Shown here: piece by piece, positions 30,995 to 55,172 of the stretch
How positions within the stretch are numbered: position 1 is the stretch's first letter
Layout: each line of letters opens with the position of its first letter
DNA from: Candidatus Enterousia intestinigallinarum
GTDB lineage: Bacteria > Pseudomonadota > Alphaproteobacteria > Rs-D84
Length of the DNA stretch: 64,000 nt
NCBI GenBank assembly: GCA_944407095.1
Contig: OX097180.1
Coordinates: 620,001-684,000, forward strand
Direction: 5' to 3'
Notes under the pieces: generated by a model
The model's database searches: none
What the model saw: only the letters and a program-made list of their open reading frames with translations
What the model was told of the DNA's origin: nothing
Made by a program: the position numbers and the translations under genes

Positions 30995-31642
30995 ATGAAA
31001 AAATTTTGTTCGTTGCTTGTAATTTGTGCGTTTGTTGCGGGGTGTACAACGGTAAATCCTTATACTGGCGAATCGCAAACGGCTAAATCTGTGTGGGGAA
31101 CCGCCATTGGCGCGGCAACTGGTGCGGCGACGGGTGCGCTGGTGTCTAATAACCGTGGGGCGGGCGCATTGGTTGGCGGATTGGCCGGCGCGGCGGTTGG
31201 CGGTGGCGTTGGATACTATATGGACACGCAAGAGGCCGAATTGCGCGCTGAATTGGCATCAACCGGCGTCAGTGTTATTCGTGATGGTGATAATATACGC
31301 CTGGTTATGCCGGGTAATATTACGTTCCGCACTGATTCTGCGGATATAAACGCCGGATTTTATGCCACATTGAATTCCGTGGCCAAGGTTTTGAATAAAT
31401 ACGATAATTCAACAGTTATGGTTTTGGGCTATACCGACAGCACTGGCAGCGCAGAATACAACCAGACCTTGTCAGCCCAGCGTGCAAATGCGGTTGCTGC
31501 ATATCTGCAGGGCCAGGGTGTAAAGTCATCGCGGTTTGAAATTATGGGTATGGGGTCATCCAATCCAATTGCGTCTAACACAACTGCGGACGGACGCCAG
31601 CAAAACCGTCGTGTTGAAATCAAGATTATTCCCAACAAATAA
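30995..31642 (+). CDS. OmpA-family lipoprotein with glycine-zipper region (YiaD-like)
   Basis: 215 residues. Lipobox FVAGC puts the lipidated Cys at 17. A Gly/Ala-rich zipper with two hydrophobic stretches follows (about 36-75: GTAIGAATGAATGALVS, GGLAGAAVGGGVGYYMD). The OmpA C-terminal domain (about 105-213) has ITFRTDSADINAG, GYTDSTGSAEYNQTLSAQRA and NRRVEIKIIPNK, so it should bind peptidoglycan. Outer-membrane integrity role by family. Good AAGGGGGGAAA ribosome site; own promoter and terminator. Confidence 0.9.
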   Translation: MKKFCSLLVICAFVAGCTTVNPYTGESQTAKSVWGTAIGAATGAATGALVSNNRGAGALVGGLAGAAVGGGVGYYMDTQEAELRAELASTGVSVIRDGDNIRLVMPGNITFRTDSADINAGFYATLNSVAKVLNKYDNSTVMVLGYTDSTGSAEYNQTLSAQRANAVAAYLQGQGVKSSRFEIMGMGSSNPIASNTTADGRQQNRRVEIKIIPNK

Positions 31643-44143: not shown

Positions 44144-44156
44144 CGGCGCGTGGGAC

Positions 44157-44185
44157 TTGATTTTTATCGCATTTTGTGATATAAT
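44157..44185 (+). promoter_or_regulatory. Promoter of the tail-fibre-like gene
   Basis: -35 TTGATT (44157-44162), spacer 17, perfect -10 TATAAT (44180-44185); predicted start near 44192. Confidence 0.75.
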
Positions 44186-44208: not shown

Positions 44209-44238
44209 GGGTTCGCTGATTTTGGCGAACCCATTTTT
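44209..44238 (+). terminator. First terminator hairpin in the tail-fibre leader
   Basis: GGGTTCGC/GCGAACCC stem (44209-44232) with 8-base loop, then ATTTTT. It lies between promoter and gene. Confidence 0.75.
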
Positions 44239-44245
44239 ATTATCT

Positions 44246-44270
44246 GCGCGTTGTTCGCGCTGTTTTTTTT
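44246..44270 (+). terminator. Second terminator hairpin in the tail-fibre leader
   Basis: GCGCG/CGCGC stem (44246-44260), 5-base loop, then TG and eight T. It ends 18 bases before the ATG. Confidence 0.65.
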
Positions 44271-44288
44271 AACCAAAAGGATACACAA

Positions 44289-45362
44289 ATGCATTTGATA
44301 ACATATACCGGCGATGGTCTAAGAACAGAGTATGATTTTTCATTTCCGTTTTTCCAGATTTCTGATGTCTGGGTTTCTGTAAATTCGGTTGTATTGTCTG
44401 CGGGCGCGTGCACAGTTGTGCCAATCGGTGCGTACGTTGATGGAAAATATGCTGGTGGTCGTGTTGTTTTAACCACGGCACCAGACATAGGCGCCGAAAT
44501 CAGAATCTGGCGTAAAATAGATTTATCGCGAACCATAGATTATCAGCCGACATTGCCGATAAATACAGATTGCCTGAACGCGGATTTTAATTTTATGTTG
44601 GAATATTTGCGTGACCTGTATGAACTGGACGGCGATGTTGGTAATATTGAAAATGCGATACAGTTTCTAGATTCAATTCGTGCACAGATTGATGCGCTGG
44701 GCGGTTTTAGTGAACTGGCGCGTAAAAGTGATTTGCCAGATTTGACAGAATATGCCAAAAAATCCGAAATCCCGGATACTGATGATTTCGCGACCAAGGA
44801 TGAAATTCCCGACACCAGTAATTTTGCCACAAAGTCCGAAATTCCCGATATCAGCAACCTGGCCACCAAGGATGAAATTCCCGACACGTCTGCATTCGCC
44901 CCCGCAAACCACACTCACGATATGTCGGCATATGCGACCACGTCCGCATTGAACAGTGCGGTGACACAGCTGCAAAATGAAATAGATGACATAGACACAT
45001 CTTCGTCATTTCCAATAGATTTTGATGACAACGACGAACCAGATGTTGTCGTAAAGACGCAACTGCCATCGGCATCAAATAATTATACCTGGTATCGGAA
45101 ATATAAGTCCGGCTGGGTAGAGCAGGGTGGCCGTGGCGCTGCAATAAATAATAGTGCGGTGACGATAACGTTGCCTGTAAAAATGGCAGATACTAATTAT
45201 TTTCCAATGATGTCAAATATAGTCCCCGCAAGTGCCGTTGCTGGCAATTATAATGGTAATGGCATTGTTATAGTTAGCACGTCCCAGGTAAAATTTGCCA
45301 CAACCGCCACAATTCCGGGATTTATATGGCGTGTCACAGGCCGTGCCGCACAAGCAGAATAA
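44289..45362 (+). CDS. Phage-tail-fibre-like protein with T7 gp17-type N-terminus
   Basis: 357 residues. The N-terminal part (about 5-90: YTGDGLRTEYDFSFPF, VVLTTAPDIGAEIRIWRKID, RTIDYQP) matches the pattern of the T7 tail-fibre N-terminal domain that docks fibres to a tail. Residues 146-205 are five exact 12-residue repeats of the type KSEIPDTDDFAT. Then comes NHTHD, common in trimeric fibres, a short coiled coil (215-235), and a C-terminal domain with YKSGWVEQGGR and VTITLPVKMADTNY typical of fibre tips. No signal peptide. No capsid, tail or lysis genes lie nearby. Its 3' end overlaps the converging glycosyltransferase by 29 bases. Confidence 0.82.
   Translation: MHLITYTGDGLRTEYDFSFPFFQISDVWVSVNSVVLSAGACTVVPIGAYVDGKYAGGRVVLTTAPDIGAEIRIWRKIDLSRTIDYQPTLPINTDCLNADFNFMLEYLRDLYELDGDVGNIENAIQFLDSIRAQIDALGGFSELARKSDLPDLTEYAKKSEIPDTDDFATKDEIPDTSNFATKSEIPDISNLATKDEIPDTSAFAPANHTHDMSAYATTSALNSAVTQLQNEIDDIDTSSSFPIDFDDNDEPDVVVKTQLPSASNNYTWYRKYKSGWVEQGGRGAAINNSAVTITLPVKMADTNYFPMMSNIVPASAVAGNYNGNGIVIVSTSQVKFATTATIPGFIWRVTGRAAQAE
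44724..44903 (+). repeat. Five in-frame 36-base repeats in the tail-fibre-like gene
   Basis: Encode KSDLPDLTEYAK, KSEIPDTDDFAT, KDEIPDTSNFAT, KSEIPDISNLAT and KDEIPDTSAFAP. DNA copies are similar but not identical. Confidence 0.9.
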
Positions 45363-52924: not shown

Positions 52925-52960
52925 AAAAATAACACCAGAAATTCTGGTGTTATTTTTTTA
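52925..52960. terminator. Bidirectional terminator of the porin gene and virD4
   Basis: ATAACACCAGAA/TTCTGGTGTTAT hairpin, A-run before, seven T after. Confidence 0.9.
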
Positions 52961-55172
52961 GTGGCTCCAATTCTTTCGTTTCGTTTGTTTGTGGAATATA
53001 TATACGTGGGGTGCCGGTATATCCCAGTGCCAGGTGATGCGACGGTATCAAAAATTCCGGCAGCGGACTGCACGCGCCCATCGCCATATATCCGGCTAAT
53101 CGTGGGTCGCTGAACGCGTATTGCTTGTCGGCCTCAATCGGGCGATGATACCAGCCCTGATATATCACCAACTGTTTTTTATCGTCCAGTTTCATAATAT
53201 CCATTGGGCTGTACAGTAGTTCTTCGGATTTTTCTTCTTTATCCTTGCCATCAGGACCCTTGACAGTTTTGATTTTCATTTTATAGCCCATCATTTCGGA
53301 AAATCTGCGGGCGGTATCAGGGTCGTTTTGACGCATAACAATTTTTGCCGCGGTGGTGGAAATAATAGTTGCCGCCGCGTCGGCACCGTATTTTTCCTGA
53401 ATCTGGTGAATATCCTGGCCAATAATCAGATACGATATTTTTTGGCCACGCCCCAGGTCAGGTCCCTGAATCACGGCCTGTAATTTCTGCATTTTTGGCA
53501 TTTCGTCCAATACGAACAATACTGGATACGGCCCCAGTTTTTCACCGGCGTGTTCGGCCTCTGGCGGGTTTGCCAACAGAAAGTTCGTCATCAATTCAAT
53601 AAATATGCCTGTGATTGGATTTAACGCTTCGGCATCGACCATATTGATTGACAGATATACTGTTACTGGTTTTACTTTGCCATCACGCGGGTCGCGCAGA
53701 CCGCGCAAGTCCGCAAAATGAAAGTCCGAATGGCTGGTTCTGTTACGTACGGCGGCGTTGCGGAATATGGACAGCCCTTCCATCACGGTGGAAATGATTG
53801 ATCCGCGTTCTTTGTCTGGTGTGTTGGCCAGCTGGGTCAATTCCAAAACAGCGCGATGTGCGTATGCATACTGGCGCGCTTCGTCCACGGCGGACATAAA
53901 TAGGTCGTGCATTGGATCGGCCATCATAACCATTTGGTCACCCTGGCGACGGCGTTCTTCCAATTCCTGGGCCATTTTAATTTGGCTGGAATTTATCCAG
54001 TCCAGAATCATAGACAATGACGCTTCGCGTCCACGCCACGCGTCTGGGATTTTATCCCACGTGCCGATATGAACATAATTCATAGTATTTAATTCGCCAC
54101 GTTGCAGCATTGCATACGCCGCATATGCATTTGGATCGTTCATCATAGACAGATAGTAATCACCCAATACTGCGGCATCTTCGTCATCAAATGTGCCGGA
54201 TGTTATACGCGCGTAAAAGTAATCGTCGGCCTTGGCACGTTCAACCTTGGATATCATAAATTGAATCAGTCCAGACAATGCCGCACGCCCAGAAATTGTC
54301 CAGTGCGGGTCGGCGGACGATGATGTTTTATCCGCAATCAAAACATTACACATTGAATCAACGTACAGGTCGCGTTGTTCCTGGTTAAACGGTACGTGTT
54401 CCGGCGACAACGGGTTCCACGACGGATAATATATTCCACGTTCGGGATCATCCTGACCCGCCCAGTTCATAATGAACACCGGCCCGATAGTGGAACGATA
54501 TGCGGAAGATTTCTGATACAATTCTGGCTTTGGGTCGTTGATAATCATTGATACATTGTTGCATTCAAAAATGGTTGGCAATACAACGCCCTGTGTTTTA
54601 CCAGTCCCCGGGGGGGCAACACACAACGCCGACAGACATTCGTTCATCATTAATGGCTTTTTCTTAAAATAGCCCAATACCATCATAAAGCCCTTTAACA
54701 GGCCCATTTTTTCAATATCTTCCTTGGACGCCTTGTTAGATGATTTATCGTCGAATTTATCACTGCTGTACGGGTTAAATTCCTTGACCAACGTGCTGTC
54801 CGCCATAAAGAAGTATGCGATAATCGGCAACAGGGGCGTTATGCACATAATATCGGTTCGTAACAGTGTGCGCATAAACCAGGCCGGAATTTCCGCCAGA
54901 ACGGACATACCTCCACTGGTTAAAATATTATGAAAATACAGTGCCGTCCAATCCGCCGTTGCTGGTGACCAACCGTAGCGCCAAATATGTTCAATCCAAA
55001 ACGACAGTGCAAACGCCAGCGCACATACCAGCCATATTCCAATCGCCCACCGCAGTGACCAGAACAGCGATGCCATTGGTCCGCGCAGAGTTTCTTTGTA
55101 TGCGCTGGATTTGAATATGTTCAGGCCCTTGGATTTACCGCCGGCGGATAAAATCTTGAACTTTTCGACCAT
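52950..55172 (-). CDS. virD4: Type IV secretion coupling protein VirD4/TraG
   Basis: Inner-membrane ATPase that delivers substrates to a type IV secretion channel. 740 residues: two N-terminal membrane segments (about 38-60 and 108-125), Walker A PPGTGKTQG at about 187-195, INDPKPELYQ, Walker B VLFVLDEMPKM near 553, and GQDIHQIQEKYG. Full length. No other type IV secretion gene and no relaxase lie in the window, so it stands alone between two terminator/promoter boundaries. A secretion system elsewhere in the genome is expected. Confidence 0.93.
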   Translation of the reverse strand: MVEKFKILSAGGKSKGLNIFKSSAYKETLRGPMASLFWSLRWAIGIWLVCALAFALSFWIEHIWRYGWSPATADWTALYFHNILTSGGMSVLAEIPAWFMRTLLRTDIMCITPLLPIIAYFFMADSTLVKEFNPYSSDKFDDKSSNKASKEDIEKMGLLKGFMMVLGYFKKKPLMMNECLSALCVAPPGTGKTQGVVLPTIFECNNVSMIINDPKPELYQKSSAYRSTIGPVFIMNWAGQDDPERGIYYPSWNPLSPEHVPFNQEQRDLYVDSMCNVLIADKTSSSADPHWTISGRAALSGLIQFMISKVERAKADDYFYARITSGTFDDEDAAVLGDYYLSMMNDPNAYAAYAMLQRGELNTMNYVHIGTWDKIPDAWRGREASLSMILDWINSSQIKMAQELEERRRQGDQMVMMADPMHDLFMSAVDEARQYAYAHRAVLELTQLANTPDKERGSIISTVMEGLSIFRNAAVRNRTSHSDFHFADLRGLRDPRDGKVKPVTVYLSINMVDAEALNPITGIFIELMTNFLLANPPEAEHAGEKLGPYPVLFVLDEMPKMQKLQAVIQGPDLGRGQKISYLIIGQDIHQIQEKYGADAAATIISTTAAKIVMRQNDPDTARRFSEMMGYKMKIKTVKGPDGKDKEEKSEELLYSPMDIMKLDDKKQLVIYQGWYHRPIEADKQYAFSDPRLAGYMAMGACSPLPEFLIPSHHLALGYTGTPRIYIPQTNETKELEPLKK

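Follow-up and report, generated by a model that had tools for sequence, protein, structure and literature searches.

A single-copy tail-fibre gene of Candidatus Enterousia intestinigallinarum very probably belongs to a podovirus-derived, gene transfer agent-like particle encoded elsewhere in the genome

Results

An intact fibre gene next to glycan genes

We examined a 64,000-nucleotide stretch of the Candidatus Enterousia intestinigallinarum chromosome (C1:620001–684000, hereafter the window); Enterousia is a genus of the order Rs-D84 (PMC12306168), and the closest relative with a name is Candidatus Enterousia excrementavium. The window contains a gene for a tail-fibre-like protein (C1:664289–665362), which is present once in the ~1.0-Mb genome (1.00 Mb). 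Its open reading frame begins with ATG and has no internal stop, as judged from sequence and translation. infB, der and a Yip1-like membrane gene lie upstream, and glycosyltransferase, acetyltransferase and DegT-type genes downstream. The gene is composed of the following parts.

44289..45362, + strand: fibre gene, 357 amino acids (open reading frame, profile matches, AlphaFold model, Foldseek)
44289..44627, + strand: T7 gp17-type docking domain, residues 1–113 (PF03906 below cut-off; phrog_1640, E 1e-11; Foldseek matches to podovirus portal–tail complexes)
44565..44696, + strand: helical neck, residues 93–136 (model helices 93–113 and 117–136, lower confidence)
44718..44897, + strand: five 12-residue stalk repeats, residues 144–203, consensus ATKDEIPDTSNF (read from the translation)
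44907..44921, + strand: NHTHD motif, residues 207–211, between stalk and tip (translation)
45030..45359, + strand: tip domain, residues 248–357, receptor-binding candidate (mostly pLDDT about 90; Foldseek match to the R2 pyocin fibre, 6ct8/6cl6)

An earlier note, made from the letters alone, had described an undecayed gene with a T7-type docking domain, five 12-residue repeats, an NHTHD segment and a fibre-tip domain, and the reading frame, the HMM searches and the structural model all bear this description out. Against PF03906 (Phage_T7_tail) the N-terminus scored E 8.7e-4 and 19.4 bits, short of the curated cut-off of 25.2 and hence of membership in that family. Despite this, its likeness to the T7-type docking domain is backed by PHROG tail families, which match at E 1e-11, and by the fold: with the AlphaFold model, which is confident at residues 1–75 and 250–310, Foldseek retrieved the podovirus portal–tail complexes of LME-1 (9efk, E 1.2e-4), Carin-1 (8ck1, E 1.8e-4) and PhiM1 (8vbx, E 4.5e-4). 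The likeness to the T7 gp17 tail fibre lies in this N-terminal domain and in its likely place in a particle; no other part of gp17 matches, and the window gene is unlinked. The tip resembles the R2-pyocin fibre (6ct8, E 2.3e-4; also 6cl6). Homology and model together suggest a protein that would dock onto a tail, extend a stalk of 12-residue repeats and present a receptor-binding tip. No signal peptide was evident by eye, and a search of phage records with the fibre protein returned no match.

Orthologues occupy the same place, adjoining the Yip1-like gene, in L001/G018, L002, G027, G029 and G120, and comparable fibres are found at other genomic places elsewhere in the genus. The NHTHD motif is kept among the orthologues as NHTHD, DHTHD or NHTHN, and in other species related tips are encoded by separate genes adjoining the portal gene. 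The earlier note had proposed that the repeats could vary fibre length by changing in number. The orthologues carry 1 (G120), 2 (G018 and L002), 5 (window) and 7 (G027) units, and thus stalk length does change between species. Within the repeat DNA, clear likeness is limited to three copies of 26 nt, spaced 36 nt apart.

A podovirus-type particle cluster in the same genome

The fibre gene had been reported to have no phage around it. This holds for its neighbourhood but not for the genome, which carries a single cluster of T7/podovirus-type particle genes about 242 kb away (C1:906339–918608), comprising portal, split terminase, scaffold, capsid, two tail-tube proteins and lysin.

C1:906807: portal, single copy in the genome (PF12236, 3e-83)
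C1:913218: tail-tube B, single copy in the genome (phrog_376, 6e-80)
C1:915806: capsid, single copy in the genome (PF19821, 3e-73)
Tail-tube A (phrog_394, 1e-29)
Terminase halves (phrog_38, 2e-44 and 5e-39; Walker A and B present)
Scaffold (PF05396, 1.5e-9)
SleB-type lysin, first gene of the structural operon (phrog_938, 1.4e-5)

On the minus strand, the lysin gene is followed by genes for a membrane protein (p99), the scaffold, a histone H1-like protein, the capsid, p77, tail-tube A, tail-tube B, p115 and the ATPase half of the terminase. Past the latter come three genes on the opposite strand, for p237, a helix-turn-helix regulator and dnaB; the nuclease half of the terminase, the portal and p87 complete the series. 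We recognised no small terminase in the cluster. Both terminase halves are under purifying selection. Tail-tube B, capsid and portal are each single-copy here, as they are in about 50 of 59 relatives, the genomes compared being mostly metagenome assemblies, and capsid identity within the genus is 80–95%. The search for tail genes that the earlier note had called for found a set, present once, which is not linked to the fibre and very probably not part of a prophage.

The dnaB between the terminase halves is the only one in the genome, and therefore excision of the whole cluster would take the replicative helicase with it. In the flanks that we read, no integrase or replication genes were seen beside it. 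We also considered an active T7-like prophage able to excise and replicate and rejected it, given the cell's only dnaB inside the cluster and the fibre 242 kb away.

Two features of the cluster deserve separate mention. The ATPase and nuclease genes of the large terminase subunit flank p237, the helix-turn-helix gene and dnaB (L078:13055–17835; C1:908054–912834), and a transcript reading through this region would run antisense through dnaB. The lysine-rich histone H1-like gene (HC2, PF07382) between scaffold and capsid (L079:6854–7261; C1:916853–917260) recurs at this position in 15 loci of the genus, in L093 and in G037; its product might compact DNA for packaging.

Fibre and particle cluster occur together

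In Enterousia, the docking domain is found either as a short adaptor gene within the cluster or, as in the window, relocated and fused to a tip. In several clusters across the class, it is part of longer fibres encoded between the tail-tube B and terminase genes. Of 15 same-genus genomes whose adaptor slot was read and is empty, 13 carry a fused fibre at another place; of 19 that have the adaptor, only 3 do (Fisher p 7e-5). The adaptor was seen directly in nine loci and deduced from coordinates for ten. In the genome under study the slot is empty, and the further T7-fibre docking domains that the note had suggested looking for are absent from it, leaving the window gene as the only copy. G021 and G024, two genomes of the genus, have neither the fibre nor the capsid, portal and tail-tube B; in G009 and G031 no docking domain was detectable although the particle cluster is present. 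We conclude with high confidence that the fibre belongs to a domesticated podovirus-type particle whose other genes lie at a distant place in the genome, an option raised by the earlier note and now matched by capsid, portal, terminase and tail-tube genes. The fibre gene would have moved out of the cluster and become fused to a tip.

A leader shared by the fibre gene and the structural operon

Between its promoter and its start codon, the fibre gene has two intrinsic terminators, or a single one in some species.

44156..44185, + strand: promoter CTTGATT-N14-TGATATAAT, core kept in six species, common to the fibre gene and the unlinked structural operon
44209..44242, + strand: first intrinsic terminator, a stem of 10 bp followed by a T-rich tail; in other species the sequence differs but the stem still pairs
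44246..44270, + strand: second intrinsic terminator, GCGCG/CGCGC stem and T8 tail, 28 nt before the ATG
44275..44281, + strand: likely ribosome-binding site AAAAGGA (sequence read and leader alignment)

A leader of the same layout precedes the lysin gene, about 254 kb from the fibre gene. Allowing at most one mismatch, CTTGAYT-N14-TGATATWAT gave 21 matches on both strands of 1.40 Mb of same-genus DNA, all 21 before fibre or lysin genes, and the motif written backward gave none in the same DNA. The motif was derived from fibre and lysin genes, and the scanned loci were chosen around those genes, some of them being copies of one place; the informative part of this count is therefore the absence of matches before other genes. 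Among relocated fibre genes, 13 of 14 have a terminator directly before the start codon, as do 12 of 12 lysin genes. In the background the figure is only 17 of 218 genes, and two particle genes (the window fibre and the L034 lysin) are counted in that set.

The Caulobacter gene transfer agent (CcGTA) needs antitermination (PMC11150451). Because of this requirement and of the leader common to both loci, we infer by analogy that the fibre and the main operon may be under joint antitermination control, so that one antitermination signal could switch on the fibre locus and the structural operon together.

That the fibre was instead co-opted alone as a surface adhesin or phage decoy, and is now unrelated to the particle, would suit the glycan genes beside it and its standing as a single gene at the locus. 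We consider this very improbable: it is the only docking domain in a genome whose cluster slot is empty, it shares its promoter and terminators with the particle operon, it is absent where the particle is absent, and its product has no signal peptide evident by eye. The adhesin and the decoy, together with the last prophage relic that the note had listed beside them, are disfavoured because the particle set is intact and conserved, two genomes are without both fibre and particle, and the leader is common to fibre and operon.

Some further leader features were noted. Outside the particle set, the only background gene with two terminators just upstream encodes a small lipoprotein-like product (window 30995–31642). 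In several species the −35 element of the lysin promoter (for example L079 8756 (−), L089 17094 (−), L090 16406 (−)) overlaps an inverted repeat, TTGAC-N6-GTCAA, a possible operator. Many species of the genus have another conserved promoter, TTTGATT-N15-TGATATAAT, in front of a gene for a small membrane protein (L273 and similar loci).

Capsid divergence largely follows the host lineage

A closely related capsid is encoded in about 59 of 385 evenly drawn alphaproteobacterial genomes, nearly always in one copy. The recurrent order across the class is portal–scaffold–capsid–p77–tube A–tube B–fibre–terminase–lysin, contiguous over about 13–15 kb and adjoining lysS, pyrD, purC or NAD kinase genes; some clusters are rearranged. 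In L107, a GTA_holin_3TM gene (PF11351, 5.6e-12) lies beside the cluster; this holin family probably occurs in phages as well. In 34 genomes, capsid distance correlated with InfB distance (Mantel r 0.54, or 0.61 without Enterousia; 0 of 5000 permutations), and the capsid evolves more slowly than InfB. The two trees have ten splits in common, shallow ones up to order level; their deep branches conflict, with 11 conflicting pairs among strong splits, and some old horizontal transfer is therefore possible. Capsids of cellular genomes group in a single clade (support 0.96) that leaves out the nearest phage, whose capsid is 44% identical. Purifying selection on capsid and portal is strong, with a capsid dN/dS of about 0.01–0.03. 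The fibre, with pN 0.19–0.20 against pS 0.74–0.75, is constrained too, though its synonymous sites are saturated.

These data also bear on whether the cluster is an active or recently decayed podovirus prophage from which the fibre gene drifted away. In favour are the phage origin and intact state of all its particle genes, the marine podoviruses as its nearest phages, and the filing of such contigs as viruses in IMG/VR. We nevertheless regard a prophage as highly unlikely, in view of the host dnaB inside the cluster, the single copy and class-wide gene order, the slow capsid whose divergence tracks that of the host, and the housekeeping flanks, in which no replication or integrase genes were seen. 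Moreover, the best 80 IMG/VR contig stretches are all under 20 kb. We read the particle set as inherited with the chromosome and kept by selection.

As to the catalogue itself, IMG/VR lists these chromosomal clusters as viral contigs (L189–L268), and 38 of the best 80 contain the cellular dnaB, a warning that virus catalogues may hold cellular loci. Beside the cluster, several families have a gene for an S24 (LexA/CI-like) regulator (L103:5682–6323, L108:4190–4840), which hints at damage-responsive control.

Discussion

The fibre of the window is, we think very probably, the tail fibre of a domesticated, podovirus-derived, GTA-like particle with a short tail, whose genes are unlinked. With particle genes in the same genome, conserved across Alphaproteobacteria, it looks like part of a GTA particle and not like a stray adhesin. 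GTAs in general are recognised by phage-derived head, packaging and tail genes, by vertical inheritance under purifying selection, and by dispersed loci without autonomous replication or integration genes. All of these were found here, the last in the flanks as read, and the deep-tree conflict remains beside the second.

We favour the view that the particle is a gene transfer agent, which would most likely package and deliver cellular DNA; particle assembly and antitermination, as well as packaging and transfer, are predictions from the genes. A particle that transfers no DNA, such as a DNA-free killing or effector-delivery device with a head, or one with some other role, would be compatible with the split terminase, with the lack of a recognised small terminase and with a particle known only as a set of genes. 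We judge it unlikely, given that the ATPase motifs of the terminase are present and both halves are under purifying selection. A tailocin has no capsid, portal or terminase, and would not need a scaffold either, whereas here capsid, portal and terminase are present and intact. Phage records searched with the window DNA for packaged host DNA gave one 74-base match only, which is no evidence of packaging.

Among described systems, the nearest in concept is FpGTA of Faecalibacterium prausnitzii (PMC12946183), a GTA-like and inferred podovirus-like element of a gut host. By its description, it likewise occupies two separate loci, the fibre and lysis genes lying outside the first operon; its host belongs to the Bacillota, unlike that of the alphaproteobacterial particle. 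RcGTA and CcGTA (Rhodogtaviriformidae) resemble the present system as vertically inherited phage-derived clusters with accessory genes dispersed on the chromosome and a 3TM holin family. They differ in their HK97-type head and in GTA_TIM (PF13547), which is absent from the genome studied here (the Caulobacter control was positive); the Enterousia capsid is of the PF19821 type and comes with a T7-type portal. Three GTA families have been formally proposed, among them BaGTA, which has an HK97-type capsid (PMC9662315). BaGTA (Bartogtaviriformidae) shares with the present particle its origin as an alphaproteobacterial domesticated phage. Relatives of its terminase include Sulfitobacter phage pCB2047-C (PMC9662315), which the cluster proteins did not match even at E 0.1. 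Homologous portal, capsid, scaffold and tail-tube proteins are found in Pelagibacter phage EXVC031P Hodr and HTVC010P-type podoviruses, but these are free phages of about 34–36 kb, whose capsid, at only 44% identity, falls outside the cellular clade.

Of the 385 genomes sampled for the capsid, 35 carry the RcGTA marker PF13547, and none of these is among the 59 podovirus-type capsid carriers, an overlap of 5.4 being expected (chance of zero 0.002, relatedness ignored). George et al. 2022 reportedly described RcGTA-type head genes in Rickettsiales and Holosporaceae. In the part of the literature that could be searched, no paper on a GTA of podovirus origin in Alphaproteobacteria came up, and the lineage appears to be undescribed there. 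On balance, we lean slightly towards the broader proposal that Alphaproteobacteria have two mutually exclusive gene-transfer lineages, the RcGTA type and, in many other families including 1-Mb gut bacteria, a podovirus-derived type whose fibre may be exported from the cluster while a leader common to both, with read-through by antitermination, would keep the two linked. Should the particle transfer DNA, it would allow genes to be exchanged across the class in groups that showed no RcGTA-type element, streamlined uncultured gut bacteria among them. It would then represent a GTA lineage separate from RcGTA, one whose capsid clade has marine podoviruses as its neighbours. The fibre would also exemplify a particle gene that has left its cluster yet stayed co-regulated.

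Two minor observations concern other loci. One genome holds a separate podovirus-like region (L097/L180; G020:C7:50000–82000) with a 780-residue fibre, the tip of which is like those of the domesticated fibres; this likeness suggests tip exchange with phages. VirD4/TraG-like and VirB11-like genes, read by eye in the window (52950–55172) and in L078:5465–6460, suggest a dispersed type IV secretion system in the small Enterousia genome.
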